Source: Desulfovibrio piger ATCC 29098
Lineage (GTDB): Bacteria > Desulfobacterota > Desulfovibrionia > Desulfovibrionales > Desulfovibrionaceae
DNA: 64,000 nucleotides
Direction: 5' to 3'
NCBI RefSeq assembly: GCF_000156375.1
Contig: NZ_DS996360.1
Location: forward strand, 118,487-182,486
In this document: positions 6,438 to 57,376 of the stretch, piece after piece
Position numbering within the stretch: position 1 is the stretch's first letter
Layout of the letters: each line of letters opens with the position of its first letter
Program-made: the position numbers and the translations under genes
Notes under the pieces: generated by a model
Seen by the model: only the letters and a program-made list of their open reading frames with translations
Told to the model about the DNA's origin: nothing
The model's database searches: none

Positions 6438-6752
6438 GACAGTTTCCTTGCGGAGGGTGAAGATTCCCGTGGTGCGGGGCACGCTGACGGGGGGAGCTTT
6501 CTAGCAGAACTGGGCGCGGACGTCCAGACGGATGCGGCGAGCGGGAAGGACCGGAGGGAAGACGGGCGGCAGAGCGGGGAAGATGACGGGCGCGCCGATG
6601 CTGTCCGCTGCCTTGCCCTGTCCCGTGGCGGGCAGCGCCTTGGATGGAGCGGAAAGTCCCTCTCCGCAGGACGCGAAAGAGGGCCCCGCCCCGCCGCATA
6701 TGCCGGGGCGGACGAGTCAGGCCCTGAGGGCCGGAGCTGGGGCCGGGGCCCG

Positions 6753-39504: not shown

Positions 39505-40020
39505 GGTAGACCTCCCGGTCGGAAGAGGGAAAGAACGTCCGCGGCCTGCGCGGACACCCTGCCAGTATAGCGCGGGGGCCCGTAAAGGTCGAGGCAGAGA
39601 GGCACTCTCCGGCGGGTCGGCGGGCCATCCTTTTGAGTGGCAAGCGCGGTCGGGGGGAGGACGCGTGCGCCAAGAGGCGCTTTGAGAAAGTCGGTGATGC
39701 GCGACAGGGCGTTTTGCGTCCGGTGCGGCAGCGGCGATACCTCAGGAGAGCGGGGAGCGGCGCTTTGCAGGATGCCGGAAGATGCCCGCATCACGGGGAA
39801 CACCTGACGGCGCTGGACTTTGGCCGGCATTTCCCGTAGTTGCGCAGAAAAGGCGCTGCCTGCGGGGCGGCCCCGCCATGGCCCTGATGGCCGTTTCCCT
39901 TCGAGTCCGTTTTGCTGATGGACAGCGGGCATTGCCGCTCGTTCCCTCGAAGGCATGGGAAACGCACCGGAAGGGACGCGGGAAGATGCCGCGGCGCTGG
40001 AACGTTTTACCGGAGACCAT
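39505..40020. other. Gap without a recognisable gene
   Basis: 516 bp between the divergent nitroreductase and small secreted-protein genes. It must carry both promoters; I see no supported gene. Confidence 0.5.
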
Positions 40021-40494
40021 ATGCAACGGACCCTTTTGGCCCTGATCTTCCTGCTCCTTTCCGCCAGCACCTGCCCGGCCGGGCAACACCCCGTCACCGT
40101 GACCCGGACTTCCGACGATTTTTACGCCGCGTTCGACCGGGACATCCTCATCAAAACAAGATTTTGTTCCGTACGGGCTTTCCAGGAAAGAGCCCTGCTG
40201 CGCTCGGATCGCTTTGGCGAACTGGTGTTCACGAACGGCACGCGTTGCACCGTGGACACTGTCTATGCCCGCAAGCGCCTGCGGCGGGGGATCCATAAGG
40301 TCACCGTCACCCGCGAAGGGGAGGGCCTTTATCGTTTGGCGGGCTCCGAAACGCTGCTCTTTGCGTCACGCTGCTCGACGCTGGCCCTGCGGGACGAGGC
40401 CGTGCTGGAGATGCAGGACAGCCTTTCCGGCATGCTGCACCTGCATGGTGGAACCTGCCGGGTGGAGGGCGTTTTCGAGGCCATCTCTTATTGA
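40021..40494 (+). CDS. Small secreted hypothetical protein
   Basis: A 157-residue unknown protein. MQRTLLALIFLLLSASTCPAG is a signal peptide, so it is exported. The mature part has at least five cysteines and a repeated strand-like pattern (SVRAFQERALLRSD and ALRDEAVLEMQD in the two halves, each followed by a glycine-containing turn and a TRC or GTCR cysteine). This suggests an internal duplication with disulfides. GGAGA precedes the ATG at 40021. Confidence 0.6.
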   Translation: MQRTLLALIFLLLSASTCPAGQHPVTVTRTSDDFYAAFDRDILIKTRFCSVRAFQERALLRSDRFGELVFTNGTRCTVDTVYARKRLRRGIHKVTVTREGEGLYRLAGSETLLFASRCSTLALRDEAVLEMQDSLSGMLHLHGGTCRVEGVFEAISY

Positions 40495-40606
40495 TATTGG
40501 GACGCGCTCTGGCTTGGGCGATCCCCGGGTGAGATGGCCGGGCCTGCCCGGCTTCTCCTTTTGGCTGCGGGTTTTTCCCGCCGGGGATGGGCTGCTTGAG
40601 AAACGG

Positions 40607-40644
40607 AAAAAGCCGTCGCAGACAGGTCTGCAACGGCTTTTTTT
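40607..40644 (-). terminator. Terminator downstream of the original tRNA-Leu site
   Basis: AAAAAGCCGTCGCAGA / TCTGCAACGGCTTTTT hairpin. On the minus strand it follows the left att copy, so before the island inserted it ended the tRNA-Leu transcript. Confidence 0.7.
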
Positions 40645-40648
40645 GTTC

Positions 40649-40708
40649 TGGTACCCGGAGCCGGGCTTGAACCGGCACAGCCGGTGGCCGAGGGATTTTA
40701 AGTCCCTT
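40649..40708. repeat. attL: 60-bp copy of tRNA-Leu 3' part
   Basis: Sixty bases identical to 57291-57350, covering the tRNA from anticodon stem to CCA. The 5' part is absent, so it is not a functional tRNA. It marks the left end of the island. Confidence 0.95.
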
Positions 40709-40823
40709 TTTAGCATTTTCATATAAGGTCATGCTTTTTAATGATCATATTGATTTTATTGGAAAAATATGAAATAGCTCTTCACATAGCATCCCTTGAC
40801 TTAGGGCTATTTCAGGAGAAAAT

Positions 40824-40842
40824 GTTGTAAAAGAGTTGTAAA
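40824..40842 (+). promoter_or_regulatory. Integrase arm-site-like repeat, left
   Basis: GTTGTAAAA-G-AGTTGTAAA, 116 bp inside attL. The same motif with one different base is at 57214-57232. The pair is likely bound by the integrase. Confidence 0.6.
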
Positions 40843-40853
40843 GAGGTGCCGTC

Positions 40854-42077
40854 ATGGGAATCAAATGGTTTTCGGAGGGAAAAGGGATCCGCTACTACAA
40901 GCACCCCCAGAGGAAGTACGGGAAGAGACCAGACAGATACTACACGCTCGTTTACCGGTTAGAAGGGAAGATAAAAACAGAGAGCTTAGGATGGGAGAGT
41001 GAAAACAGGGTTCCCGGCGAAAGTATGCTGAAGAGAGCTCAACGTTTGCTGGCCATGCTTCGTGAAAACTGGCGTACAGGAAACGGGCCACAAACCTTGG
41101 CAGAGATGCGCCATCTCAACCAGCTTGAGAGAAAAAAGAAGCTGGCTCAGGAACAGATGGAAGCACGGCAGCTCGTTTCTTTAGATGCTTTCTTTGAACA
41201 AGAGTTCAAGCCTGTTGCTCAACGTAGCAAAAAAGCATCATCATATGAAAAAGAGTTTTCTTACTACCGAAACTGGATTATGCCAGTATTGGGAAAAAAA
41301 TCTTTGATACAGATTGATATGATGGATTGGGAACAGATATTGCAGCCTTTAGATAAAGCAAATCTTACTATTGCTACAAAGAGATATATTTATGGTACAT
41401 TGTGTCGAATTTTGAAATGCGCTAGAGATCGTGGGTTTGCAGTAACTATTCCATCAATGAAAAAACTAGGTTTATCAAATATAGGTAATAATAGGAGGAC
41501 ACGTGTTATTGAAGAATGTGAAATGGTAAAAATTCTTGATAATCTAAAGATGAGGGATATAAATGCTTATAATATTGTTGTATTCGGTGCTTTAACTGGG
41601 TGTAGATTTAGTGAAGCGGCAGGATTAAAATGGGGAGATATTACAGAAAGTGGAATTATATTCAAAAAAACTAAAAATAATGATTTACGTATTATTCCTA
41701 TATCAAATTCGCTTAAAACATTTCTAGAATCTCTTAATAGAAAGGAAAATCATGAAAATGTATTTTTGAATACAAGAGGTAAAATTTACAAAGAAGCCCC
41801 ACATTCTTTTAGACAAGTAGTTAAAGAGCTTAGTTTAAATGAAAACCGTGATAAACTCGATCGTATTTCCTATCATTCGCTGCGTCACACAGTTGCAACA
41901 ATGCTCTCGCAGGAGTTAGATATTCGTTCCCTTATGGATTTACTTGGTTGGAAGCAAGTTGCTATGCCTGCACGATATATGCACGGTAATGAAGAGAGAA
42001 AAATTGCAGCACTCAATAATGTTGGTTCTCTTGTTGAAAAGAAAAAGCAGGCGCACATTATTCAATTTACTGGATAG
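40854..42077 (+). CDS. int: Tyrosine recombinase (site-specific integrase)
   Basis: A 407-residue phage-type integrase that would insert and excise the island at tRNA-Leu(TAA). An N-terminal arm-binding domain and SAM-like core domain lead to the catalytic part, with Arg251 (TGCRFSEAAGLKW), Lys271-273 region, His341-x-x-Arg344 (YHSLRHTVATM), Trp366 and nucleophile Tyr375 (ARYMHG). All catalytic positions are present, so it is probably active. It lies 145 bp from attL and points into the island. The C-terminal half is AT-rich compared with the N-terminal half. Confidence 0.93.
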   Translation: MGIKWFSEGKGIRYYKHPQRKYGKRPDRYYTLVYRLEGKIKTESLGWESENRVPGESMLKRAQRLLAMLRENWRTGNGPQTLAEMRHLNQLERKKKLAQEQMEARQLVSLDAFFEQEFKPVAQRSKKASSYEKEFSYYRNWIMPVLGKKSLIQIDMMDWEQILQPLDKANLTIATKRYIYGTLCRILKCARDRGFAVTIPSMKKLGLSNIGNNRRTRVIEECEMVKILDNLKMRDINAYNIVVFGALTGCRFSEAAGLKWGDITESGIIFKKTKNNDLRIIPISNSLKTFLESLNRKENHENVFLNTRGKIYKEAPHSFRQVVKELSLNENRDKLDRISYHSLRHTVATMLSQELDIRSLMDLLGWKQVAMPARYMHGNEERKIAALNNVGSLVEKKKQAHIIQFTG

Positions 42078-42156
42078 CATGTTAGCCGATAAAGGAATGG
42101 CTCATTTCATCGGGTTCTTCGCTTACTACCAAGCTTTACTCAGATAGGATATTCAC

Positions 42157-43149
42157 ATGGGAAAAGAACGGATACCGCATGACTCTGCGTACAAGCAGTT
42201 TTTCAGCAATCCTGAAATGGTGGAATCTCTATTGCGGGATTTTGTACCCGCTGATTTCATTGAAGACCTAGATTTCTCAACGCTCGAACGCTGTTCAGGA
42301 AGTTATGTAACGGATGATTTGCGGGAGCGTCATGACGATATTGTCTGGCGCATCGGCTGGAAAAAGGGCGCTTGGTGCTATGTAGCATTAGTTCTGGAGT
42401 TCCAGAGCACACCAGATTACTGGATGGCATTGAGAACACTGTCCTATACGGCGCTATTACTGCTTGATCTCGTCAAGACGGGAAAGGTGCATGAAGGTGA
42501 AGGCTTGCCGCCTGTATTTCCTATTGTTATATACAATGGAGGCAAGGCGTGGAAAGCTCCGCAAGAGGTGGCGACCTTGTTTGCGCCCATGCCAGACAGT
42601 CTGAAGCACTACTGTCCCCAGCACCGTCATTTTCTGCTGGATGAGAGCCGTGTTTCAGGGGATGAGCTGGACAAAAGCCAGGGCCTTGTGGCGCAGCTTC
42701 TGAAACTGGAACGGGCGCAGGAGCCGGAACAGGTTCGACAGATAGTTAAGGAATTGATAACCCGACTTCATGAACCTAAATACTTGCTTTTGCGTCGTGC
42801 GTTTACAGTGTGGCTGAGCCGTGTCGTGCTGAAACGCTCCGGGATCACCGAGGAAATTCCTGAATTTCAAGACTTACGAGAGGTAGACGCCATGTTAGAA
42901 GAACGTGCCGCTCAGTGGAAAGACGAGTATATCAAGCAAGGAAAGACTGAAGGTATCTCCATCGGGGAAGCTAGAGGGATCAGATCGGCCTTGCACGCTT
43001 TTCTGGAATCTCGTTTTGGGGTCCTGCCCCAGACAGTGACTTCTTATCTTGCGAATACTTCCGATCCAGATGCTCTGCGAAAATTGATGATTTTCGCTTT
43101 TCATGCGGAATCATTGCAGGCCGTTATTGACAAATTCAAAGAAAAATAA
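42157..43149 (+). CDS. Rpn-family recombination-promoting nuclease
   Basis: A 330-residue protein of the Rpn/transposase_31 type, with a PD-(D/E)XK fold that cuts DNA. The catalytic cluster is RHDDIVWRIGWKKG followed by YVALVLEFQS (Asp, then Glu-x-Gln). The C-terminus, with EYIKQGKTEGISIGEARGIR, is a small repeat-rich tail typical of the family. Members raise RecA-independent recombination, and phage-defence roles have been described for some. It follows the integrase by 79 bp and ends with a terminator. Confidence 0.82.
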   Translation: MGKERIPHDSAYKQFFSNPEMVESLLRDFVPADFIEDLDFSTLERCSGSYVTDDLRERHDDIVWRIGWKKGAWCYVALVLEFQSTPDYWMALRTLSYTALLLLDLVKTGKVHEGEGLPPVFPIVIYNGGKAWKAPQEVATLFAPMPDSLKHYCPQHRHFLLDESRVSGDELDKSQGLVAQLLKLERAQEPEQVRQIVKELITRLHEPKYLLLRRAFTVWLSRVVLKRSGITEEIPEFQDLREVDAMLEERAAQWKDEYIKQGKTEGISIGEARGIRSALHAFLESRFGVLPQTVTSYLANTSDPDALRKLMIFAFHAESLQAVIDKFKEK

Positions 43150-43151
43150 TG

Positions 43152-43450
43152 CTACAATGGTGAAATCGAATATTGCCCTGCTTTGGCAGGGCTTTTTTGT
43201 TCGTATAGAAAGAGGCTCTTTCCTATTAAATGATTAATAATATCCAATCGTACTGTTGCTTGTTCTTCTGGATTTTCAACGATGCGGTACAGATCGTAAT
43301 TATTCAAAGAATATTTTGAGGTTAGTTGTATAATAATTTTTCTGTTTCATCCTTTGTAAGGATTTTGTTTAAGTTAAGAGGTTTCGACTGATTATCAAGA
43401 TCAACATCTCTTGTATGGAAGTATTCAATATGATTGCTTATATAAAATAC
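43152..43450 (-). pseudogene. Frameshifted remnant of an unknown gene
   Basis: On the minus strand, two coding-like stretches in different frames follow each other. The first (HIEYFHTRDVDLDNQSK, then LNLNKILTKDETEK) ends at a stop near 43340; the second (SKYSLNNYDLYRIVENPEE, then TVRLDIINHLIGKSLF) runs to a stop at 43152. One frameshift separates them and no start is visible. The parent gene is not recognised. Confidence 0.4.
43175..43199 (+). terminator. Terminator after Rpn-type gene
   Basis: GCCCTGC-TTT-GCAGGGC hairpin followed by TTTTTT. Confidence 0.8.
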
Positions 43451-43494
43451 AGTGTATTATTTTCTCAACTGATTTCTTGGAAAAATAAAGAAAA

Positions 43495-43519
43495 AGGCTC
43501 CTCAAAAAATGAGGAGCCT
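43495..43519. terminator. Hairpin with AGGCTCCTCA arms
   Basis: AGGCTCCTCA / TGAGGAGCCT, perfect 10 bp around a short A-rich loop. It lies in a non-coding stretch and carries no flanking gene of its own, so what it terminates is unclear. Confidence 0.5.
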
Positions 43520-43794
43520 GAACTTGTATTTTTGATGTCTTTGCTAATGCTCGTTGATGAAATAATTTATCCTATTCAGCCAATCAAAATTAGAATTAGT
43601 GCTAGCCGTAGTTTCAGAACGCTTTCTCGCTTGGAGGCTATCTGCTTTGAATAGATGATACTTCCTGGTATATTGCCGGAAGTGATATTCTTATTTGAAA
43701 GGATTTTTTTTTGGGGGGGGGTAATATCTAGCAGTATACTTGATTAAGTGACATCTTTATATCGTGATACAAAGTATACACAGGAGCATTCACA

Positions 43795-43885
43795 TGCCAA
43801 CCTCTATTGGCTTCTATGAGTGCCTCCGACAAAACGGATACTGAAAAGCCCATCAATAGGGGCTAAAATCAATTTTTTTTGTACT
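43795..43885 (+). ncRNA. Possible small structured RNA
   Basis: CCTCTATTG pairs with CAATAGGGG over 9 bp (one G-T), enclosing about 44 nt. AGCCC/GGGCT forms an alternative stem, then TTTTTTTT ends the element. A possible 14-residue frame (MPTSIGFYECLRQNGY) with an AGGAG site overlaps it. No known RNA family recognised. Confidence 0.3.
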
Positions 43886-44238
43886 AGTAATGGTAAGAGA
43901 GGGGGGAGTATATATATGGTAGATAGATAGGTGAATAGGGTAGATAGAGTAGGAGGAGGCGATGGTAGTTGGTTGTAGCATAGGTCTAGAGTAACAAAAA
44001 AAAGTATATAGGTGTATTTTTTAGGGGGGGATAAAAATTATTAGTATAAAAAAGCTTTTAGATGTATTATCTAAATAATATTTTTTTAATTAGGTATGAA
44101 AAAATAAAAATGTTTTTTTATAAACTTAACTTGTAATTTATAAAAATGAATTTGATAAAAATAGACAATAATAAGAAAAAATGATAAAAAATATATGTAA
44201 AATAAATATTATAATTCTTTACGATAAATTGTTGAATA

Positions 44239-45516
44239 CTATTTTTTCGAAATTCTCGGATAAGTTTTAAAAGTTTCATAAAATTCATTCATCATCAGTT
44301 GGCGAAGTAAATATTCATCTTTGCTGCTTGTTATAAAACTATCATGTATGCAGAGAGCACATTTACCATCTCGATAAAAATGAAGAAGAATTTTCTCGGC
44401 GATATTGCTTTCAAAATTTTGTAATTTTAATCCATAACTACTACAAAAATACTTTTGAATTGGGGCATGTCTTTTGAGTATCTTGTCAATAATATCAATA
44501 GACGGTACCTTTGGTTGATTCTCCGGCTGAGCATTATCATCTTCACTATATTTGTACTCATTGTCTCTGCGATATTTGTTGAGTGCTTGGACGGCCTTTG
44601 TTTTATCAGGTGCATTTATGGAAATATTGACGGCGCTTTTTATTACATTTCGTAGAGTTTTTGGTATTCCATCAAGTAAATATAAATCTGTCTCAGGAAG
44701 TTGTATCATCTCGATGGCGTATAACATCGAGAGATGAAGGCATGAATAATCCAGTTCTACTGTGTCTTCTCCATCAATTGTGATGTACTGCCTATATTTT
44801 GAGGGAATTCTTTGACTCCAGTGTGAGAAAAAGCGCCCACCTTCATTAAAGCTCCCATTATTGAAAACTCTCCTGTATTTATTCTCAAGTTCAATATTTG
44901 ATATATTTGTATTTGATTTCTTTATCTCATCCCAAAGAATCTCTGGATCAAGTTTTATAATATGTCTAGAGAGCATCTTGTTAATTCTATTTGTATTTAA
45001 AATTATGTTTTTTACCTGTTGATTGTCGCTATTATAGTTCATTTCATGCTTATCATTATCGCGTAAAATGACAGGGATATTCCGTTTTATAATTGTACCA
45101 GAATCACTTTTGTATTTTCTGAATAGTCTAAAAAGTTTTTCAGTTCCTTTGATTCGTGTCTGTCTCTTAGCTATATCAGAATTAAATCCTTTGTGCTGTT
45201 CTATGTATCCATGTGATTCGAGAACATCGAGAATATAAATTGTATATTTATATTGAAGGAATAGATTTTTTAGCCTTTTTAAATTTCTATAGCTGTTTTT
45301 AGAACGGCTGATAGCAATATATTTTGTTGGATCTTCTTGCTTTACAACAAATAGATCTGTTAATATTATGCGGAGATGGTATCTAAGTTTCTTTTTGGAT
45401 AGATTTTTTTGAGTGCTGAGAAATTTTTTGTCTATAAAGTTACATGCTTCTTTTACTTCTGGTTTGTTCGACCAAATCCAGATATCAAATGGACGCGAAT
45501 TGTCGAGTTTGTTCAT
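44239..45516 (-). CDS. Polymerase-palm-like protein (family A / T7-RNAP type motifs)
   Basis: A 425-residue protein of no family I can name. The C-terminal half shows three ordered motifs like those of family-A DNA polymerases and single-subunit RNA polymerases. Motif A is VELDYSCLHLSMLYA (Asp256). Motif B is R289-x3-K293-x3-N297 (RNVIKSAVNISIN). Motif C is CIHDSF (Asp392). A conserved-looking GGRFFSHWSQRIPSKYR segment precedes motif A. The N-terminal 200 residues are basic and helical. Start ATG at 45516 has AGGGGAAG 5 bp upstream; a longer open frame to 45777 is unlikely. AT-rich cargo, probably acquired. Function unknown; nucleic-acid synthesis or defence possible. Confidence 0.7.
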   Translation of the reverse strand: MNKLDNSRPFDIWIWSNKPEVKEACNFIDKKFLSTQKNLSKKKLRYHLRIILTDLFVVKQEDPTKYIAISRSKNSYRNLKRLKNLFLQYKYTIYILDVLESHGYIEQHKGFNSDIAKRQTRIKGTEKLFRLFRKYKSDSGTIIKRNIPVILRDNDKHEMNYNSDNQQVKNIILNTNRINKMLSRHIIKLDPEILWDEIKKSNTNISNIELENKYRRVFNNGSFNEGGRFFSHWSQRIPSKYRQYITIDGEDTVELDYSCLHLSMLYAIEMIQLPETDLYLLDGIPKTLRNVIKSAVNISINAPDKTKAVQALNKYRRDNEYKYSEDDNAQPENQPKVPSIDIIDKILKRHAPIQKYFCSSYGLKLQNFESNIAEKILLHFYRDGKCALCIHDSFITSSKDEYLLRQLMMNEFYETFKTYPRISKK

Positions 45517-45877
45517 TATCTTCCCCTGCGATTTTTTTCTTACGACTTTTTGCCGTGGAATATAGGTATAACTCCTATCAGGCCATGTCGCGTATACATC
45601 ATGTTCTGCCGGGGAATATATCGATTTGTGCCGACACAGTGTATCTTTAGAAAAGCTTCTCCTTTGGCTGGGCCGGTTCGAGACCGATAGGCCAACGTCC
45701 CATCCATAATCTCCCCCGGAAACAGGGGGTGATCTCCACTTGGGAGGACATTCAAAAGGCTGACAACTGACCATCATATTTTATCATCTATCTTCATAAA
45801 CCTTCATCGCGTGTGAATCTTTTTATTCAGTTGCATGGAGATTTTTGTAACTTACTGATAATATTTGAATAAAAAAT

Positions 45878-45947
45878 GATTCTAAGCGAGTTTCAGCAAG
45901 GAAGATGGCTCAATGGTCATCAGCATGCTGTTTGAAGGCTTAGAATC
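45878..45947 (-). other. Perfect 10-bp inverted repeat with T-rich exit
   Basis: GATTCTAAGC (45878-45887) and GCTTAGAATC (45938-45947) enclose 50 nt that contain a further CAGCATGCTG palindrome. On the minus strand the stem is followed by ATTTTTTATT, as in a terminated small RNA. It lies upstream of the polymerase-palm gene. Confidence 0.4.
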
Positions 45948-45966
45948 AAAGTATGAGGGCTTTTAG

Positions 45967-45989
45967 AATCATACTTTTATAGTATGATT
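45967..45989. promoter_or_regulatory. Dyad AATCATACT-N5-AGTATGATT
   Basis: Perfect 9-bp inverted repeat with 5-bp spacer. A good size for an operator of a dimeric repressor, or a weak hairpin. The half-site repeats at 45941-45955 (AGAATCAAAGTATGA). Confidence 0.45.
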
Positions 45990-46166
45990 TTGGTGCATCT
46001 TGCACTATGTCCGACAGGCGTCCCTATATATTTATTAAAAAAATTTTTATACAGTAAATTTACATGGGTACAAAAAAATTAAGATTTTCATATAGAAATA
46101 GGTTAGCTCTTGACTCAAAACAGCAAACCCGGAATAAGCTGGAGGATCATCCCCAGGAGGAATACG

Positions 46167-46712
46167 ATGATCCCGATTTTCGCATCGCTGCCAGAGTCCT
46201 CTCAAACGAAAGCGGTCATGGAATATCTTTACGAGCTTGGCAATAGACGGGAGTGGAATGAGCTGGAGAAGGTGCTGCACGAGATTCTGTCTTGCAACGG
46301 CTTTCATAAGCTGAAAGCCCAGGCTTTGGAGTATGCTGTTTTTATGGGCCTTCAGAGGAAGGAGCAACGGCAAGCCCTTGGATACTACCATGATCTTTGC
46401 CGTCTTGAAGATGATTGTGGGCCTTTTCGCACTCAGCGGGCACAGGCCGTCGCATATCTGGTGCGGCTGTTTGAAAATTCTCCACAAAGTGTGCTTGTGC
46501 CGTGGTGTGAGCTCGTATGTGAAGACCTTCCTCCATTCGCACAGTATCTTTGTGGGCGTAGTGGCCTTTTTTTATTGAAAAATCTTTGCAAAAACAGAGA
46601 GTTGACGAGCGCTTGTGTCGTGTTCAGGCTTTTTAAGCGTTTACCCGTCCGTATATGCGACACATATCTGCGCGAGGCCAAGGTCATTCTTCAGAGGCAG
46701 AGGGAGCGTTAA
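46167..46712 (+). CDS. Helical hypothetical protein
   Basis: Unrecognised 181-residue protein, all helix by eye, with repeated hydrophobic-helix spacing (EYLYELGNRREWNELEKVL; YAVFMGLQRKEQRQALGYY) resembling TPR-type repeats. It has seven cysteines. The ATG at 46167 has AGGAGG 6 bp upstream; the frame is open from 46110. Its last 29 bp overlap the convergent XRE gene. Confidence 0.6.
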   Translation: MIPIFASLPESSQTKAVMEYLYELGNRREWNELEKVLHEILSCNGFHKLKAQALEYAVFMGLQRKEQRQALGYYHDLCRLEDDCGPFRTQRAQAVAYLVRLFENSPQSVLVPWCELVCEDLPPFAQYLCGRSGLFLLKNLCKNRELTSACVVFRLFKRLPVRICDTYLREAKVILQRQRER

Positions 46713-46953
46713 CAAGGCGTTGGCATTCCCTGTCAATCAGCGTGACCATGTAGCCGGGCGAAATACCAAAAGCTTGCGCGAGCAAAAAAATTGCGTTCAG
46801 TGTTGGTCGATACTTTTTTTGTTCGATCTGCAACAAATAAACGCGGTCGATTGTCGTGAGGAGCGCCAGCTTGCGCTTGCTCAGGCCTGCATCTTCCCGT
46901 AGGCGAGTCAGCACGTTGGCTACGGCCTCGGTGAGTTTGGGGTAATCTTCCAT
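46684..46953 (-). CDS. Small XRE-family HTH protein
   Basis: An 89-residue DNA-binding protein with the Cro/C1 HTH at residues 14-66 (LREDAGLSKRKLALLT; FLLAQAFGISPGYMV). Likely a regulator of island genes. An AAGG site precedes the ATG. Overlap with the convergent helical protein gene is unusual but both have good ribosome sites. Confidence 0.7.
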   Translation of the reverse strand: MEDYPKLTEAVANVLTRLREDAGLSKRKLALLTTIDRVYLLQIEQKKYRPTLNAIFLLAQAFGISPGYMVTLIDRECQRLVNAPSASEE

Positions 46954-47058
46954 CCAGCCTTACTATCAGGATGGATTGCATTATGTGCAGTGCTGGTATA
47001 CTAAACAATTATATGCAAAATTTTTGGGCTGTTTTCTGGCGTGCCCGGGAGGACAAGT

Positions 47059-48474
47059 ATGGAAAAGCGTATTAAGATGTATAATCCAAAAACAGGTAAA
47101 TCAAAAAATGGATTTATTGGCTTTAGTTGGCCGATTTTGTTTTTGGCATGGATTCCTATGTTTGCGCGCGGTGATATCAGGAGTGGTCTTGAGTTAATTG
47201 CTGTTCAGTTAGGTTGTTTGGCTATTCAGTCTTGTGGATTTCAATCATTTTATTTGATATTTATAGTTATTCAGGTTATGGTAAGTATTTCTTATAATAT
47301 TTATTATACAAAAGGATTGATACGCAAAGGATTTCTTTTTAATGATACAGATGTATTGAATGGAATTGGAGCTAAGACTGTTGGTATTTCTGTTAAAAAT
47401 TGTGTTTTTTACCAAAATGGTACGAGTAATATAGATGATAATTCAGATGATATTGATGGTAGACAATGTTCGGATATGAATAAACTCGAAGATGAAAATG
47501 TCGATAAGATGAAAAAATATAGCACGCGTAATCTGGATGATAATTCAGATGATATTGGGAGTAGGCATTGCTCGGATATAAATAATTTTGAAGATGAAAA
47601 TGTTGATAAGCCGATATCATCTTTGGCTGTAAGGAAAATCAGCAAACTCTCATCTTCAGAGATACAAAAATATGGAGCCATATTTTTTTTGACGATATCA
47701 GCTGTACTTGGATATGTAGAATATTCTTATACTGATACTATATTTTACGTTGTTGAAATCGAAAAAAAACTTTCCCTTGAGCCTACTCTTATAACTACTC
47801 TTTTTTCTTTTATTTATATAATGACAATGACTATTCGTGTAAAATCTGAAATTATATTTTGCAAAGAGAATAGAACCGTAGGTTATTATATTTCGGAATG
47901 GATACTATTGGTGTTATCTGTTTTAGTTACGGCTATGTTTTTCTCTATATTTACTAATTCATGTAAATCAGATGTATTATCTTTTGCTGATATTCATGGT
48001 ATTACTGGAAAGCATTTGCTGTTAGCAGCAGTTATGTTTTCATTTGTAGGTGCGAGAAGCTTGGCTGGTTTCATATGGATTGCCGTAATCTTTGTGGGGA
48101 TTTCTAATGCGATTGATGCTGATAAAGCTATGGGGATATTTGGTGTAATTTTTGCCATCTGTTCTATTCTTGGATTGTCTTTGCAGTTCATTAGATTGTA
48201 TGCCGATCAATTTGGAGCGATGATAAAATCTGATTTTATGGGGGCAAGAACTATTATCTCTGGAGATGTTGCAGAAGCTAAAAATGTTGCTGGAGCCATT
48301 GCAAAGCAGGCTGTAAATATTGGTAAGACATATGTAAATCCTGAAATTGCAATTGCACATAACGCAATTGGTTGTAAACAAAGAAAGAAAAATTCTCCTG
48401 AGGAAAAAGTTGTTGATTTGTCAGATTATAAAAATAGAAATAATAGGAAACGATTAATTCATAAGAGAAAATAA
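47059..48474 (+). CDS. Membrane protein with duplicated acidic repeat
   Basis: A 471-residue membrane protein of unknown role. It starts with a conserved-looking NGFIGFSWPILFLAWIPMF segment of the DUF2628 kind and a second helix. Two copies of a 25-residue Asp/Asn-rich unit follow (DDNSDDI...EDENVDK) encoded at 47434-47508 and 47536-47610. About six more helices and a basic tail end it. The ATG at 47059 has GGAGG 7 bp upstream. GC is low, consistent with transfer. Confidence 0.6.
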   Translation: MEKRIKMYNPKTGKSKNGFIGFSWPILFLAWIPMFARGDIRSGLELIAVQLGCLAIQSCGFQSFYLIFIVIQVMVSISYNIYYTKGLIRKGFLFNDTDVLNGIGAKTVGISVKNCVFYQNGTSNIDDNSDDIDGRQCSDMNKLEDENVDKMKKYSTRNLDDNSDDIGSRHCSDINNFEDENVDKPISSLAVRKISKLSSSEIQKYGAIFFLTISAVLGYVEYSYTDTIFYVVEIEKKLSLEPTLITTLFSFIYIMTMTIRVKSEIIFCKENRTVGYYISEWILLVLSVLVTAMFFSIFTNSCKSDVLSFADIHGITGKHLLLAAVMFSFVGARSLAGFIWIAVIFVGISNAIDADKAMGIFGVIFAICSILGLSLQFIRLYADQFGAMIKSDFMGARTIISGDVAEAKNVAGAIAKQAVNIGKTYVNPEIAIAHNAIGCKQRKKNSPEEKVVDLSDYKNRNNRKRLIHKRK

Positions 48475-48584
48475 AGGATATGAGGTAGTCGTAACTTATT
48501 TATAGCATTGATGTCTTTATAGCTATCTAAAAAAGCATCGAACGTGTTTATTTGACGCACTCGAAAAGTTTTTCAGGAGGTTTT

Positions 48585-49547
48585 ATGTTTCATATACTCG
48601 ATTTTATTGATTCTAAGGATATTCGAGAACATAATGCAAATACGCAGTTTACACCAATGGAACAAGCAGTGCTCATTTATCATAGCTGCCGCACAACCGT
48701 TGATGATAAAATGACAGCTTGGCGTGAATTACTGGAGCGTTACGGAGAGAATGATTTTAAGATACTCAATTATGGAGAGAGACAGTTCGTAAGACGAAGC
48801 AACCGTCAGTTGGTGGAAGATACCGTTCGGCAGTATGAAGCTGCCCTTTCCAGTAGATATACTGCTTCCAATGTAATCTTTGCAGCCAGTTTTGAGGAAA
48901 TAGGACATCCACGATCTGACGAACTTTCCTATTTTACTGATTATGACTCTGCTTTTGCTTTCATCGAAGCTGAAAAACAGAGGTATTTGGATAATGATTA
49001 TCTAAAGGATGTCCCGACAAAGGCGCGCATTTCCATTGTTCCACTGAATGAAAAAAATCGTCGAGACAGTACTTGGTTTGACTTCGATACGGATTTGCGA
49101 ATGACCGGATTATATCCATGCCATTCCAGCGACGAAGACGGAATGGATAACGAAGATCTGGATATGGCATATATCTATGTACCTGTTCCGTTTAAGAAGG
49201 GCGATATTTTAAAAACTATTAACCCAAACTACAAAACCGACTATGGTGTTTTGCCGAGGGATAGCATTTGCCCTTGGTGGTGTGAAACAATGGGTGATTC
49301 TTCTGATATGATAGTTATGCTAGATTGTTATGACTACGAAGAAAATTTATTCGACTATTATGATGATTGCGAAATTCTGGAGTTGGAGAAATGCTCTTGG
49401 TCTGAATTGCCAAAGGAAGAAAAAATACTAATTTTATTAAGTTGCGTTTATCAGGATAAAATGGAAGCTGGGCAGATGCTCTATTACTATTCCAAGTTTG
49501 GAAGAAAAGCATATGATGAAATCGCCGCATACTTGAAAGAAGAATAG
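48585..49547 (+). CDS. Acquired hypothetical protein, tandem copy 1
   Basis: A 320-residue protein whose start, MFHILDFIDSKDIREHN then FTPMEQAVLIYHS, resembles a large unnamed family common on mobile elements of gut Firmicutes. It is acidic, with repeated Asp/Tyr motifs (YFTDYDSAFAFIEAEK) and no catalytic motif I can identify. GGAGG precedes the ATG. The next gene is a near copy (about nine of ten residues by eye). Cross-phylum transfer is inferred from family habit and the low GC. Confidence 0.65.
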   Translation: MFHILDFIDSKDIREHNANTQFTPMEQAVLIYHSCRTTVDDKMTAWRELLERYGENDFKILNYGERQFVRRSNRQLVEDTVRQYEAALSSRYTASNVIFAASFEEIGHPRSDELSYFTDYDSAFAFIEAEKQRYLDNDYLKDVPTKARISIVPLNEKNRRDSTWFDFDTDLRMTGLYPCHSSDEDGMDNEDLDMAYIYVPVPFKKGDILKTINPNYKTDYGVLPRDSICPWWCETMGDSSDMIVMLDCYDYEENLFDYYDDCEILELEKCSWSELPKEEKILILLSCVYQDKMEAGQMLYYYSKFGRKAYDEIAAYLKEE

Positions 49548-51235: not shown

Positions 51236-51946
51236 TTATGCTAATTTATAACTGTGCAGAGTCCGCATAAAGTTACGCAAGGTAAGCGGTTCTTTTTTGC
51301 AGCGTTCCAGGTGGTCTTTTTGCTCGCTGTAGACTTCGGAGGGAAGCCTGTCGGGAGCGCAACCATACTGGTCTTGCAAGTATGCACGGTAACAATGTGT
51401 CAATTCCGCCAGTCCCAGATCAGCAAGGAGTGCGCTGAGGGAAGGGCGGTTTTGAACGTTTGCCTGTACCGGAGCTGCGGCCTGTTTTCTGGATGCCCCA
51501 ACGGGGTGTGATGTCCGTCTTTTGGGCGATGGCTCCATAATATTACAGGCAGCATTGCCATCATCATCTTCTTCGGGAAGGATACCCAGCATCGCGGAAA
51601 GTGCGTACCTTCTTCCGTAGGTGATGGCACTTCCCATTGCTTGGGGATCATGTTTGGCTAGCGGGATAACCGCTAATGAAGCCTGATATTGTCCACTTTT
51701 TGCGTGGACGAGCTTGGTGACAAGACCGAGATACTCTCCTTCCACGGGAACAGGATACTGGGTAAGCAGTACGTCGTGTTCGATAAGAGCATTTCGGCAA
51801 GCGTCCATGATACTTCCCAACGATGCGTAGGAGTTATGAACGAAGGGGTTAACGGCATCCTTGAGCGCGGGTTTCAAATCTTTTTGTACCGCAATCAGGG
51901 CTTTTGAAAGCTCCGTGATTTCGGCGGAACAGAATGCATAATCCAT
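51236..51946 (-). CDS. ERF-family single-strand annealing protein
   Basis: A 236-residue phage-type recombinase that anneals complementary single strands. The ERF core holds ITELSKALIAVQKDL, NPFVHNSYASLGSIMDACR, and ITYGRRYALSAMLGILPEEDDDGN, the last being the family signature. A Pro/Arg-rich linker and small C-terminal domain follow. The ATG at 51946 has AGGAAGGATC upstream; the longer frame to 52198 is shadow. With the RecB-like nuclease gene 11 bp upstream it forms an exonuclease-annealase pair like Red or RecET. Confidence 0.88.
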   Translation of the reverse strand: MDYAFCSAEITELSKALIAVQKDLKPALKDAVNPFVHNSYASLGSIMDACRNALIEHDVLLTQYPVPVEGEYLGLVTKLVHAKSGQYQASLAVIPLAKHDPQAMGSAITYGRRYALSAMLGILPEEDDDGNAACNIMEPSPKRRTSHPVGASRKQAAAPVQANVQNRPSLSALLADLGLAELTHCYRAYLQDQYGCAPDRLPSEVYSEQKDHLERCKKEPLTLRNFMRTLHSYKLA

Positions 51947-51957
51947 GCTGATCCTTC

Positions 51958-52737
51958 CTAAGCGGTATGTTGTGGGGAAAAGCATAGTTTCTGATACATA
52001 CACCATCCGCAATGGAGCCCCCTGTTTTTCCAGAACAATCCGTGTCGTATCGCTTTGACGATACTGGATATTTCCTGATATGCGGCCATAAAGTCCGGCA
52101 TGGAGCGTTCTGAATGCAGCCAGACAACCTTGAGCTCCTTTGTACGAACAAGGTACAGGAAGCTGACCGGTATGGAGATCTGGAAGCCGAAGGTGCACGC
52201 CATCAGATAGGCGTAGACCGTCAGTTCAAGGGCACGATTGGCTTGTTCTTCATGGGGAGACTTGGCCGAAGTCTTGATATCGATGATTCGCGTGATGTCT
52301 TGGGCGGGAGCATCAATGATGTCCGCGTAACCACGCAAGATGACGCTGTGATCGACTTCCCCGGTTGCGGGATGTACCAGTGGATGCTCAAAGTACGTTT
52401 CCATCTGGTATGTGTTCAAGCCGCCGATCATTTCAAGAAATCTCGTTGCTTCACTCAGGATTTTTCGTTCCGCAGCTTCCAGTTTTTCAGCACTGGAATA
52501 TTCCGTAGCTTCAAGCTGGACGGATGACCAAAATTCCTTGGAGGCTTCTTCCGCCATGTTGGGAATGGCTTTGCCATATACCAGGCAATTTTCCACAATA
52601 TGGTGGAGTGCCGAACCTTCTATGAGCGCAACAGGCGTTTTTTCTACGAGAATTTTCTCGATATAGGTGAGCCTGAATTTTTCCGGGCACTGGCAGTAGG
52701 TATTGAGGCGTGATTTTGAAAGCAGCAGAGGTTCCAT
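51958..52737 (-). CDS. RecB-like PD-(D/E)XK nuclease with Fe-S cysteines
   Basis: A 259-residue RecB-family nuclease that would resect double-strand ends for the ERF protein. Key positions: His45 (GSALHHIVEN), Asp139 (RGYADII), Asp153-x-Lys155 (IIDIKTS) and a later Tyr (LTVYAYL). Cys15 plus Cys243, Cys246 and Cys252 (CGWCMYQKLC) match a Cas4/AddB-type 4Fe-4S cluster. The ATG at 52737 has GGAGG 6 bp upstream. Confidence 0.85.
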   Translation of the reverse strand: MEPLLLSKSRLNTYCQCPEKFRLTYIEKILVEKTPVALIEGSALHHIVENCLVYGKAIPNMAEEASKEFWSSVQLEATEYSSAEKLEAAERKILSEATRFLEMIGGLNTYQMETYFEHPLVHPATGEVDHSVILRGYADIIDAPAQDITRIIDIKTSAKSPHEEQANRALELTVYAYLMACTFGFQISIPVSFLYLVRTKELKVVWLHSERSMPDFMAAYQEISSIVKAIRHGLFWKNRGLHCGWCMYQKLCFSPQHTA

Positions 52738-52810
52738 ACTCCCTCCTGCGTAGTGGCGGGAGGGATGTCCCGCCACCACGGTAAAATGGTAACGGGCTTT
52801 AAGCCTTCAA

Positions 52811-53695
52811 CTAGGCTGCGAAGCGCAACCTGCGTCGAGGCAGGTCTTCAAGAGATGCGTCAATGCCGGTCAGCAATTTTTCCATCTGTTGATGGAGCTC
52901 TTGCCTGACCTGGGTGTTACCCCTGATGGCGTTTGCGTTGGTGTTGGTAATAATTCCTCGGCATTGCTCAACAAGTTCAGACAGTTGTGCATCATCGAAG
53001 ATGTTTCTGCTGCTGAAGTTGTCGAGGAACTGTTTGAGGTTTTCAACAGCCGCGTCGCGTAACCTTCTCGGCTTGCCATCATCATGATTTTGCAGCTTAT
53101 CAGCGATGTTGGTAACAAGGTCGACAAATTCTTCACGCAAAGCCGTGATCGCCTCACTGCGCGCTTGCTCCATGAGTTCTTGAAACTTCTTTACTTCTTC
53201 CTTGTAGATGGAGGGAGGCAAAACTCGTGAAACGGATGGGCCTATCGTGATATATCGCCACTGGAAGCGGAATTTATTTTTGATCATTTCCTGTGTCGGG
53301 TAGTCACATTCGTCGAAGAGTTCTCCAAGGGAGTCTTTGGCATCTTTGACCGTCTGGGGATACCAGTAGAGGAAGTCCTCGACAGCACTATTATAATGCC
53401 ACTTGATCTCCTTCAGGTGTTCCTGAATCTCAGGGATCAGCTTTTTCGGCACCAGAACACAGCCTTTGATGGGGAAGGGCAAGGAGATCTTTCGAAGATA
53501 ATTTCTTGCTTTTCCGATGTGTTGCTTGATGAGAGCCGTAGAGTCTGGGGCGAGGAGCAGTTTTCGTCCTCGCAGGAAATCAACATTCCCGACATCGGCC
53601 AACATGGATTGCGGCAATTTTTTATCCAACTGCCAACATGTGGCCGTCAGCTGAAGTAAGGCTGCTTCCCGAAACATGTTTTCAGCAGTGACCAT
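52811..53695 (-). CDS. DUF3150 protein
   Basis: A 294-residue helical protein of a phage- and island-borne family. The middle (residues 90-170) is rich in aromatic positions (KWHYNSAVEDFLYWYPQTV). The C-terminal half is a helical bundle with a basic end (RRRLRFAA). No enzyme motif is seen. It is fourth in the operon; partners are often AAA ATPases. Confidence 0.7.
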   Translation of the reverse strand: MVTAENMFREAALLQLTATCWQLDKKLPQSMLADVGNVDFLRGRKLLLAPDSTALIKQHIGKARNYLRKISLPFPIKGCVLVPKKLIPEIQEHLKEIKWHYNSAVEDFLYWYPQTVKDAKDSLGELFDECDYPTQEMIKNKFRFQWRYITIGPSVSRVLPPSIYKEEVKKFQELMEQARSEAITALREEFVDLVTNIADKLQNHDDGKPRRLRDAAVENLKQFLDNFSSRNIFDDAQLSELVEQCRGIITNTNANAIRGNTQVRQELHQQMEKLLTGIDASLEDLPRRRLRFAA

Positions 53696-53709
53696 TGGAA
53701 GGAGCTCCC

Positions 53710-53907
53710 TTATGCCTTGTTGCAGGTGATGACTTTCTTCATCTCGGTATAGGGGATAAAGGCCGTCGGTTTCATTTTGATAAAAGTTTCTTCGCCGAGA
53801 AGGTCTTTCATGAACTTTGTGGCCTCGACGCAGGACTTTCCCGGAAAACCGTATGTGGACATTTCGACACGACCATCAGCGGTCACGGTTATCTGAACAA
53901 TTTTCAT
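53710..53907 (-). CDS. DUF2997 small protein
   Basis: A 65-residue protein with the family motif YGFPGKSCVEATKFMKDLLG in its middle. It lies between Ycf35-like and DUF3150 genes with gaps of 9 and 14 bp. In cyanobacteria and phages this family commonly accompanies Ycf35-like proteins. Function unknown. Confidence 0.75.
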   Translation of the reverse strand: MKIVQITVTADGRVEMSTYGFPGKSCVEATKFMKDLLGEETFIKMKPTAFIPYTEMKKVITCNKA

Positions 53908-53916
53908 AAGTTACTC

Positions 53917-54339
53917 CTACAAGGTGATCGTCAGTTCGATACCGCTGTTAACTTGTTTTTCGTTATAGCTATAACGCTTTTTGCGCACAGCTTCCTTGAT
54001 GACTTCGACACCGTAGGCCTGTTTCAGAAGGCCGCCATTTTCCCCTATAGCCCTTTTGAGTTTGCTGTCCCAAAAGTCGCAGAGCAGCATGTAGCTGCCG
54101 TTCCTTTTGATAATGCCTATTTCATAACGTGCATTGGGGATCTGGATGGCGTGGTCACAATGACCAAGTTCTTCTTCCGTGATACCAGGGGGCAGAGGGT
54201 ATTTCTCAGGTTCAACGAGTTTGCCGTACCAGATGTATGTTTTTTGGTTTTCCATGAAGCGGAATCCCATACGGCTACAGGCACGCTTGATAGCACTAAG
54301 ATCGTAGATCTTGAGCTGGATGTGCGAAACGTGTGACAT
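53917..54339 (-). CDS. Ycf35-like DUF1257 protein
   Basis: A 140-residue protein related to chloroplast/cyanobacterial Ycf35. MSHVSHIQLKIYDLSAIKRAC is the family start, followed by CDHAIQIPNARYEIGIIK and LLCDFWDSKLKRAIGENGG. No catalytic residues are evident. Gap to the AAA gene is 8 bp, so they are co-translated. Confidence 0.8.
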   Translation of the reverse strand: MSHVSHIQLKIYDLSAIKRACSRMGFRFMENQKTYIWYGKLVEPEKYPLPPGITEEELGHCDHAIQIPNARYEIGIIKRNGSYMLLCDFWDSKLKRAIGENGGLLKQAYGVEVIKEAVRKKRYSYNEKQVNSGIELTITL

Positions 54340-54347
54340 TTCATCTC

Positions 54348-55799
54348 CTAATGTGTAGAGGTTGATGGTACAAATGGCGGTGTAGTCATGATTGTTGTGC
54401 GACGTATTTTCCGCTTTTCACTATGTTGTTCGTCAGGAGTATTTGCAATTCTGGCTCTAGAACGAGCCCATTGGCGTAGATGTTCGATATCTTCTTTCAT
54501 AGTTCTTGAGAGAGGAATGAAAGATTTTAGAGCTACTTCGAGTCCGTCAAACAACGAATCTCTGATTATCTGCTCAATTTCTGATCCAGTGTAACCATTC
54601 AGGTTATCTGCCCATTCGACAGGCATTGATGTGCCATATTTGCGATTCATTATTTGTATAATTTCCATTCGTTCACTTCGAGATGGAAGGTCAACAAACC
54701 AGATAGCATCAAATCTGCCAGCCCGAAGAAATTCAGGCGGTAATTCTGTGATGTTGTTCGCAGTGGCTACAATAAAGGCAGATTTTTGCTCATTGGCCCA
54801 TGTTAAGAAATGCGAGAACATTCCCATCGTGGTACCTGAGTCATTGAGTCCTCCACTTTTGGTTCCAGAAAACATTTTTTCCAGTTCATCAAGAAAGAGA
54901 ACGCAATTTCCGAAAGCATCAATAATTTTGGTAGCTTCACGCATCCGTCGTTCTGATTCACCGACAAGGGCATTTTTCAATGCACCGATGTCGAGACGGA
55001 TGAGCGGGAACTGGAGCATGGAGGCTATGGAACAAGCAGTTTTGCTCTTTCCCGTACCCGGCACACCAACCAGCAAGATACCTTTAGGTTTCGGTAAGCT
55101 GGAATGAAGCTGATAGGCTTTGGATCGATTGATGACATACTCTTTGAGCGGGGATAGGCCACCGACATCAGCGATATCCGCAGCGGGATAAATCTCTAAC
55201 AGGCCAGACTTTTTTATCATCTGGGCCTTTGCTTCGGTGATGCTCTTTGAGCTGAAGTAGCCTTTTTTGATCAGGCTGAGAGAGTAGGCTGTTTCAGCCT
55301 GAAATTCGGTCAACCCTGTAGCGAGCCGTGCGGCTTTTCGGTTTGGCCGAATGTTATGAGGTTCACCCAAATCTGTTTGCAGGCGATATAGCGCCTCTTC
55401 ATCTGGCAGCTTTACTTCCACGAGGTGGAAGAATGGTTGAAGTGCTTGCGGTAAGGTGGGGGTAGGTGCGATGACAGCGAGACAATTTCCAAGGCTTTTG
55501 TATAGAGGAATGGCGTTCAGGACTGCTTGACAGACCATAGGGTCGTCCAGAAACGTGGATAAGCCATGACAGATGAGAAGCGTGTCCTTCGTAGTGGTAA
55601 GCCACGAGATCGCTTCAACAGGATTTTGAATTTCCTCATAGTGAAATAATTGCGGGGAAAATCCCCGGATACCTTGCAGACAATCCCATCTGGCAATCTG
55701 CCAGCCAGTTATTGCACGAAGCTCTTCCTCAGTTCTATGTGGTTCAAAAGTTTGGAGTAAAACCGTCGGAAAACCAGCTTTAAGAAGGTTTGTAATCAT
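54348..55799 (-). CDS. Ycf46-like AAA+ ATPase
   Basis: A 483-residue AAA+ ATPase first in the operon. The C-terminal AAA domain has Walker A GVPGTGKSK (245-253), Walker B LFLDELEK (301-308), sensor Asn348-349 and Arg finger region RAGRFD (359-364). Its N-terminal half (residues 1-200) is the diverged second domain of the Ycf46 type. ATG at 55799 has AGGAGG upstream; an open extension to 55874 lacks one. The C-terminal tail is basic and Thr/Pro-rich. Hexamer remodelling a partner such as the Ycf35-like protein is inferred. Confidence 0.85.
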   Translation of the reverse strand: MITNLLKAGFPTVLLQTFEPHRTEEELRAITGWQIARWDCLQGIRGFSPQLFHYEEIQNPVEAISWLTTTKDTLLICHGLSTFLDDPMVCQAVLNAIPLYKSLGNCLAVIAPTPTLPQALQPFFHLVEVKLPDEEALYRLQTDLGEPHNIRPNRKAARLATGLTEFQAETAYSLSLIKKGYFSSKSITEAKAQMIKKSGLLEIYPAADIADVGGLSPLKEYVINRSKAYQLHSSLPKPKGILLVGVPGTGKSKTACSIASMLQFPLIRLDIGALKNALVGESERRMREATKIIDAFGNCVLFLDELEKMFSGTKSGGLNDSGTTMGMFSHFLTWANEQKSAFIVATANNITELPPEFLRAGRFDAIWFVDLPSRSERMEIIQIMNRKYGTSMPVEWADNLNGYTGSEIEQIIRDSLFDGLEVALKSFIPLSRTMKEDIEHLRQWARSRARIANTPDEQHSEKRKIRRTTIMTTPPFVPSTSTH

Positions 55800-55861
55800 G
55801 TAAAATCCTCCTAAATTTATATTTCTATATACAAGGAGAGATTTTGCAATTTTAGAAGAGC

Positions 55862-55890
55862 AAAAAAAAGCCACCGATTTCTCGGTGGAC
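55862..55890 (-). terminator. Terminator upstream of the six-gene operon
   Basis: CCACCGA-GAAA-TCGGTGG followed by a T run on the minus strand. It ends transcription of the two small HTH genes, so the AAA operon needs a promoter within 55800-55860. Confidence 0.8.
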
Positions 55891-57232: not shown

Positions 57233-57290
57233 AAATACGAAACAAAAAAAGCGGCTACAGAATCTAAATCTGTAACCGCTTGATATTGTT

Positions 57291-57350
57291 TGGTACCCGG
57301 AGCCGGGCTTGAACCGGCACAGCCGGTGGCCGAGGGATTTTAAGTCCCTT
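57291..57350. repeat. attR: 60-bp repeat within tRNA-Leu
   Basis: Identical to 40649-40708. It bounds the island on the right; crossover is in or near the anticodon stem-loop. Confidence 0.95.
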
Positions 57351-57376
57351 GTGTCTACCAATTCCACCATCCGGGC
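57291..57376 (-). tRNA. tRNA-Leu (anticodon TAA), restored by the island
   Basis: Complete 86-nt gene on the minus strand: acceptor stem GCCCGGA/TCCGGGT, discriminator A plus encoded CCA, anticodon loop CTTAAAA (TAA), long variable arm of class II, and TTCAAGC T-loop. Its 3' 60 bases come from the island's own attachment copy. Confidence 0.96.

Follow-up and report, generated by a model that had tools for sequence, protein, structure and literature searches.

The question raised by this locus is what a protein of only 425 residues, with the motifs of a nucleic acid polymerase, is doing in the accessory DNA of Desulfovibrio piger. A first-pass annotation, made from the letters alone of the window (the whole stretch of 64,000 nucleotides analysed here), had recognised polymerase palm motifs A, B and C in this protein and implied a role in phage protection. 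All three motifs are present: DYSCLHLSMLYA contains D256 of motif A, and it is followed by R289-x3-K293-x3-N297 and by IHDSF with D392. The features discussed below are collected in Table 1.

Table 1. Positions in the window of the mini-polymerase gene, its conserved codons and the element that carries it; fractions are members of a 98-row family alignment, and places in Pol I and T7 RNA polymerase (RNAP) are given in the numbering of those enzymes.
Feature	Position	Strand	Evidence or conservation
Left end repeat of element, copy of tRNA-Leu 3' part	40627..40708		83 columns, 92.8% identical to 57269-57350
Tyrosine integrase of element	40854..42077	+	PF00589, E 6.5e-23
Transposase_31 (YhgA-like) gene of element	42157..43149	+	PF04754, E 1.1e-33
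Mini-polymerase gene, 425 aa, divPolA2 / phrog_4756 family	44239..45516	-	ORF list, PHROG, AF2 model, fold matches
Minimal thumb helices, Arg hairpin, palm and fingers, residues 145-425	44242..45084	-	Aligned range to family A polymerases and T7-like RNAPs
Codons H391-D392, motif C	44341..44346	-	98/98, motif C being the search seed
Codon N301, place of Pol I Y766 / T7 RNAP Y639	44614..44616	-	Asn 93/98
Codons R289-x3-K293, motif B	44638..44652	-	R 97/98, K 98/98
Codon H261, place of Pol I E710	44734..44736	-	His 93/98
Codon D256, motif A metal-binding Asp	44749..44751	-	98/98
Codon R228 in GGRFF hairpin	44833..44835	-	97/98
N-terminal domain, residues 1-138, predicted winged-helix-like	45103..45516	-	Own model, Foldseek, VIA, profile matches
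Small HTH regulator of element	46684..46953	-	HTH_3, E 2.1e-9
ERF annealing protein, PD-(D/E)XK nuclease, DUF3150, DUF1257-like and AAA ATPase genes, right half	51236..55874	-	Pfam
Right end repeat, over 3' part of tRNA-Leu(TAA)	57269-57350		BLAST
tRNA-Leu(TAA), insertion site	57291..57376	-	ARAGORN, BLAST, empty site

The gene and its flanking DNA

The plus strand reading of 44239-45516 is full of stops and the protein comes from the minus strand. It begins MNKLDNS, and we set the start at MNKLD because the starts of four Desulfovibrio relatives align there, despite a frame that stays open to 45777. The gene is under purifying selection, with a computed dN/dS of 0.11-0.20 in five of six close pairs, these five being the ones where it was computable.

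The odd non-coding sequence said to flank the gene is real, with about 1.1 kb downstream and 0.6 kb upstream. Downstream, between 43700 and 44240 of the window, the DNA is AT-rich, with G-runs and GTAGATAGA-type repeats. A conserved non-coding partner RNA was rejected as a candidate: a search of 40000-48000 against Rfam gave no match at E 1, and the five Desulfovibrio copies share little conserved sequence upstream of the gene. Three of these five (L003, L005 and L006) have a conserved stem-loop with arms GGCCAG.../...CTGGCC just upstream of the polymerase start, which may be a terminator, attenuator or operator. An iteron-type origin beside the gene was also rejected, repeated 11-mers being no commoner than in controls (per 400 bp, a mean of 1.81 upstream in 73 loci and 1.81 downstream in 72, compared to 1.87 in 137 control stretches).

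Family and distribution

The window protein matches phrog_4756 (E 2.4e-61), a PHROG family whose function is not annotated; no Pfam family reached the cut-off and NCBIfam gave no match. Phage relatives are in print as divPolA2, found in barbaviruses and other Caudoviricetes, and Yutin et al. 2024 (PMC11348598) suggest for them a repair DNA polymerase or an RNA polymerase. By tblastn a relative is present in 257 of 50,697 phage records, always at less than 60% identity, and 237 of the 257 are Vibrio or Rheinheimera phages, ICP1 among them, with 115 records from Rheinheimera phages; the tblastn count for plasmids is 4 of 72,556 records. The distribution in bacteria is sporadic: relatives occur in 4 of 36 other genomes of the genus, in 8 of the 395 genomes sampled from the phylum, a number that includes the genome of the window, and in none of 14 control genomes.

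Relatives were gathered by pattern scans seeded on a motif C DNA pattern, which gave 55 viral loci and, on bacterial contigs with alignment A2, 193 loci of which the best 80 were kept; a scan of the bacterial contigs with a single protein as query found no relative. These 135 loci were reduced to 130 with at least 250 matched residues and to 109 after near-copies were removed. The alignment used throughout (A3, 98 rows) holds the window protein and 97 of the 109 non-redundant relatives, with 12 shorter or extra-long relatives left out and the ICP1 protein also outside it. In a quick tree of the 98 proteins, 6 label changes are needed for the 29 viral rows versus 25.3 when shuffled, the bacterial rows are labelled as eight phyla, many being from metagenome assemblies, and the window protein groups with the four Desulfovibrio copies at 99% SH-aLRT.

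Some single loci are worth recording. About 0.6 kb upstream of an intact polymerase there is a remnant (L003:303-863 on the plus strand, the same as L079:3324-3884) in which the first ~35 polymerase residues are fused to unrelated sequence, perhaps the relic of an earlier element copy. Paracoccus versutus pBEN (L008) has a copy of the N-terminal half (ORF 1022-1624) and a full copy (ORF 5599-7458) about 4 kb apart, both preceded by similar integrase sequence and with transposase-like ORFs around them. At L149:9290-9375, on the minus strand, ARAGORN places a tRNA-Ile(GAT) antisense within the 3' part of the polymerase ORF, which would be either a false call or a gene end that overlaps an att site.

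Predicted fold

The structure prediction and the comparison with the Pol I and T7 RNAP palms, which the first-pass annotation had proposed, find a family A palm in the model. The AlphaFold2 model of the 425 residue protein has a mean pLDDT of 92.2 and a pTM of 0.87, and in this confident model residues ~145-425 are predicted to form a palm and fingers of family A. VIA-align matched this part to yeast mitochondrial RNAP (8c5u, Z 14.7, rmsd 3.8 over 259 residues), T7 RNAP (1s77, Z 13.7, rmsd 3.9 over 261 residues), the apicoplast DNA polymerase (5dkt, Z 13.6, rmsd 3.8 over 237 residues) and Bst Pol I (4dsj, Z 13.4, rmsd 3.9 over 250 residues), and among the 50 matches listed Z ranges from 12.4 to 14.7 over 236-262 residues. 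These values are too close for the fold to separate a kinship with DNA polymerases from one with RNA polymerases. The best Foldseek match in the PDB is a Pol I large fragment (E 1.5e-5), and sequence and profile searches found no homologue of the palm with a solved structure. Aligned as profiles, the family and seven T7-like RNAPs reach a probability of 83.8% over 55 columns around motif C, versus 3.6% over 204 columns for 24 Pol I sequences, where motifs A and C are in register.

There is more to the protein than the palm that had been described at first, as a separate N-terminal domain of about 138 residues precedes it. Modelled alone, residues 1-138 have a pLDDT of 93.3, and the predicted fold is probably a winged-helix. 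MarR-type and other winged-helix regulators head the Foldseek list (best E 0.053, none significant), VIA gives winged-helix regulators mixed with ribosomal proteins at Z of at most 6.9, and the family profile weakly matches PadR-type proteins in this domain (1xma, E 0.047). The models agree with the earlier statement that the protein has no exonuclease, but the accompanying statement that it has no promoter-recognition region becomes doubtful given the winged-helix-like domain predicted here.

Catalytic residues and the sugar pocket

D256, E254, R242, Y279, K293 and G227 are invariant in the 98 members of the alignment, and R289 and R228 are each kept in 97; the latter we take, by motif, to correspond to the hairpin Arg that family A polymerases conserve. 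Poor conservation of Asp256 had been named beforehand as something that would speak against a polymerase, and all 98 aligned members keep it. D392 is also found in 98 of 98, a count that is biased because the relatives were found with the motif C DNA pattern. The ICP1 member, outside this alignment, has YDE at motif C and a Glu at the place of H261.

The pocket positions were placed by ungapped register (D256+5 = H261, K293+8 = N301), so that H261 corresponds to E710 of Pol I, and N301 to Y766 of Pol I and Y639 of T7 RNAP. Position 297, at the place of Pol I F762, is Leu in 48 and Asn in 37 of the 98 members. The 24 Pol I sequences of the phylum, which are those of 30 fetched loci that match a motif A pattern with the E place left free, have E in 22 and D in 2 at the E710 place, F in 23 and Y in 1 at the F762 place, and Y in all 24 at the Y766 place. 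The mini-polymerase family does not have this ribose/dNTP pocket of Pol I proper (E710, F762, Y766). CCPol retains E710 and F762 and prefers dNTPs, according to Bebel et al. 2020 (PMC7581432), whereas the window family has mostly His at the E710 place and Leu or Asn at the F762 place. The sugar pocket therefore differs from those of both Pol I and CCPol. The His261/Asn301 pocket suggests that ribonucleotides are excluded less strictly than by Pol I, which a primase would tolerate, and this is the least certain step of our argument.

The element in tRNA-Leu(TAA)

The gene had been described as lying alone in accessory DNA, which is not so, as about a dozen other ORFs share the 16.6-kb element with it. 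The repeated tRNA end, the integrase and an empty site in a relative together lead us to regard the island as a real integrated element of ~16.6 kb. In the relative with the empty site (G006, also locus L208) the genes that flank the island are 1.8 kb apart, versus 18.2 kb in the window, and the stretch holds one tRNA-Leu(TAA) and can be aligned to the DNA on either side of the island, the two alignments overlapping by 60 bases. GC content is ~65% to the left of the element and 29-51% between 41 and 57 kb. The DUF1257-like match in the right half is below the Pfam cut-off.

Other genes of the plus strand in this region include a tandem duplicate at 48552-49547 and 49664-50629, whose products of 331 and 321 aa are very similar and had no Pfam match at the thresholds used. 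The 477-aa protein encoded at 47041-48474, also on the plus strand, is membrane-like by eye with a repeated DDNSDDI stretch, and its N-terminus matches phrog_4915 (E 5.6e-18), whose function is not annotated.

Recurrence with integrases and tRNA sites

A tyrosine integrase lies within the fetched DNA of 54 of the 80 bacterial loci (the best 80 of 193) and of 3 of the 55 viral loci, and in 28 of the 36 bacterial loci with at least 7 kb on both sides. The expectation is ~6% of loci, a crude figure taken from the 14 over-cut-off integrases in one genome, the 2.87-Mb genome of the window. The nearest integrase points towards the polymerase in 47 of the 54 loci. By eye, 13 bacterial loci have a serine-recombinase-like gene cluster, and Pfam found Resolvase in 7 of 131 nearest neighbours (137 neighbours from 73 of the 80 loci, with five longer than 900 aa and one polymerase fragment dropped before scanning). 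No helicase or SSB is among the 25 commonest of the 82 Pfam families in these 131 neighbours, the neighbour clusters show no conserved gene order around the polymerase beyond recombinases, and in the clusters and Pfam counts no repair gene recurs beside it.

The ARAGORN scan covered 60 of the 80 bacterial loci and found a tRNA or tmRNA in 42. The tRNA 3' end is repeated ~6 kb or more away in 18 of these 42 (near repeats between two adjacent tRNAs in L130 were excluded), with the polymerase between the copies in 18 of 18 and the integrase too in 17 of 18, although such bracketing by long spans is partly expected as the polymerase sits mid-locus by construction. The bracketed spans measure 6-12 kb in the 17 loci with an integrase and 14 kb in the eighteenth. 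Five of the smallest bracketed loci (6.0-7.0 kb) contain, besides the integrase and the polymerase, two to five further ORFs of at least 70 aa.

Starting from the integrases, the nearest kin of a Desulfovibrio query (at least 63% identity) retain the polymerase in 3 of 3 cases and more distant ones in 0 of 8, a ninth being in a genome outside the polymerase search. For SAR116 integrases the polymerase is retained in 4 of 4 nearest kin (at least 86%, query included), which are no independent sample since the polymerase search had already found those loci, and in 0 of 15 more distant ones, only 5 of which lie on full 18.9-kb stretches. The window integrase itself did not match the Desulfovibrio integrase query at E 1e-60. 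Being so distant, it indicates that the polymerase goes with more than one type of integrase and that the tie is loose. A Mantel comparison of polymerase and integrase histories over 50 of the 54 loci gave rho 0.12, with 5 of 999 permutations as high, which points to weak co-evolution. The SAR116 loci L088-L093 share a similar integrase and a tRNA-Val site, and their polymerase alleles go down to 64% DNA identity with downstream genes at ~86% and differing upstream DNA, a pattern that we read as allele replacement at the polymerase gene. From the integrase kin and the Mantel result, the gene looks constant inside close element lineages and exchanged between them.

Comparison with known systems

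The closest published kind is divPolA2, which is the same family by sequence and fold: both fall in phrog_4756 and a Barba31A protein is matched by Foldseek with E 2.6e-22 and a TM of 0.68. Both have in the models a minimal palm without an exonuclease and with an extra N-terminal domain, for which Yutin et al. report no detectable similarity and which here looks winged-helix-like; some phages have two or three copies, and divPolA2 is also carried by phages with their own replicative polymerase (PMC11348598). The published text cited here concerns phage genomes, whereas the window copy sits in a bacterial chromosome, within an element that encodes a tyrosine integrase.

The TV-Pols are predicted primase-polymerases linked to integrases (Iyer, Abhiman and Aravind 2008, PMC2579912). 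They resemble the window family in being family-A-like proteins of 400-600 aa encoded on bacterial mobile elements alongside an integrase or resolvase, and in having a two-helix thumb, a hairpin Arg, two Asp, and a fingers Asp with RxxxK. In the window protein, matched to this written description and not to the 2008 alignment, the features are helices 166-183 and 191-201, R228, D256/D392, D277 and R289/K293. A difference is that no D5-type helicase is seen to recur beside the window-family genes when the neighbours are judged by their commonest Pfam families. Microcystis phage Ma-LMM01, which has a TV-Pol member, gave no match to profile A3, and searches of single plasmids, one from P. denitrificans and one from M. 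nodulans, were also empty. The plasmids are only part of the genomes of these organisms named in 2008, and their empty result carries no weight; the likeness to TV-Pols is one of described features.

CCPol-MP of the SCC elements primes and extends DNA in vitro with an SSB-like partner (Bebel et al. 2020, PMC7581432). Like the window protein it is a family A polymerase that lacks a full exonuclease and is encoded by an integrated element (PMC7581432; Rice 2023, PMC10061031), but its operon has an OB-fold partner and a helicase, whereas neither an OB-fold SSB nor a D5/DUF927-type helicase is seen to recur here when the neighbours are judged by Pfam. T7 and mitochondrial RNAP and DNA polymerase I share the palm and fingers fold and motifs A, B and C; the window protein differs in being roughly half as long, in lacking an exonuclease and the known promoter domains, and in its His/Asn ribose pocket.

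In open-licence papers we found the term divPolA2 only in the 2024 paper and its preprint (PMC11188092), nothing on this family in tRNA-integrated bacterial elements, and no biochemistry of the mini-polymerase family. As divPolA2 (2024) and TV-Pol (2008) were already published, the mini-polymerase belongs to a known but little-tested kind.

Possible functions

We favour, at a probability of about one half, a minimal family A polymerase, a chromosomal member of divPolA2, which serves small integrative elements by priming and/or copying the excised element. This reading draws on the anatomy of the element, the intact catalytic residues and the published analogues TV-Pol and CCPol-MP. The integrase would first excise the element. 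The template would then be gripped, perhaps at a favoured site, by the winged-helix-like N-terminal domain together with the minimal thumb, and the palm would start and/or extend a strand, so that the element is copied or converted to a duplex ahead of re-integration or transfer. As neither a helicase nor an SSB was observed as a recurrent neighbour of the gene, we propose that the helicase, SSB and replicase of the host would supply the remaining steps. That same lack of a recurrent helicase or SSB, the lack of iterons, and the phages with another replicative polymerase count against priming or copying and would fit another role, and the weak link between polymerase and integrase and the distant integrases without a polymerase also count against it. 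A more specific and rather tentative form of the proposal joins the winged-helix, the minimal palm and the His/Asn pocket into a site-specific primase or primase-polymerase for tRNA-integrated elements of 6-17 kb without a helicase of their own, making RNA or mixed primers, and carried by phages too, some in several copies.

An element- or phage-specific single-subunit RNA polymerase, whose winged-helix-like domain would read promoters while the palm makes mRNA as in T7, has perhaps one of the better claims among the other roles but we still think it unlikely. The mitochondrial and T7 RNAP structures match as well as the DNA polymerases do, the profile comparison leans towards the T7-like enzymes (83.8% versus 3.6% for Pol I), RNA_pol is the Pfam family most often matched at E 0.1 (PF00940, 5 of 98 members, best E 0.0013), His takes the position of Pol I E710, and Yutin et al. 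2024 (PMC11348598) raise the same option. However, where T7 RNAP has a Tyr (Y639) the window protein has Asn301, 425 residues leave no room for the known T7 N-terminal region, and one member weakly matches an exonuclease/DNA polymerase model (E 0.015). Because gene order is unconserved beyond recombinases, no regulon is visible either.

The implied phage protection belongs to a wider idea, that the gene is conflict or defence cargo beside the integrase, acting by nucleic acid synthesis in the manner of reverse-transcriptase defence or against rival elements. Type III modification and toxin-antitoxin genes do lie near the polymerase in some loci (annotation and Pfam/PADLOC counts), as do BrnT- and HicAB-like ORFs by eye near some copies, and the polymerase alleles differ inside related elements. 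The protection role is nevertheless unsupported by PADLOC, which at E 0.1 over the 98 members gave ten families with a best E of 0.0029, each in at most 2 of 98; phages themselves carry the gene, some with two or three copies, and there is no sign of a conserved non-coding RNA (Rfam at the window and the five Desulfovibrio upstream regions), so that we give defence a low probability. A repair or gap-filling DNA polymerase, finishing strands after excision, integration or recombination, is about as improbable. A minimal palm without an exonuclease would suit short synthesis, ERF and PD-(D/E)XK genes are also in the window's element, and repair is one of the two options of Yutin et al. for the phage copies (PMC11348598), but the clusters and counts have no repair gene recurring beside the polymerase and the family has other residues at the ribose-pocket positions that Pol I conserves. 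Least probable by far is a catalytically dead palm acting as a DNA-binding factor only: although RRM-type proteins thought inactive occur among mobile-element Pol-SSB pairs (PMC10061031), both catalytic Asp and the motif B pair of Arg and Lys persist in 97-98 of the 98 members and dN/dS is low.

Implications

TV-Pol (2008) and divPolA2 (2024) were described from sequence, and in the papers cited here assays are reported only for the CCPol of S. aureus SCC. The family in phages is already in print; the present analysis adds that it also resides in tRNA-integrated bacterial elements, and it adds the unusual pocket and the likely winged-helix domain. The window gene links the phage family to compact tRNA-integrated bacterial elements, and its own element is a defined case with both ends and an empty site. 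The His/Asn pocket and the predicted winged-helix-like domain bear on how a family A palm becomes a primase or an RNA polymerase.
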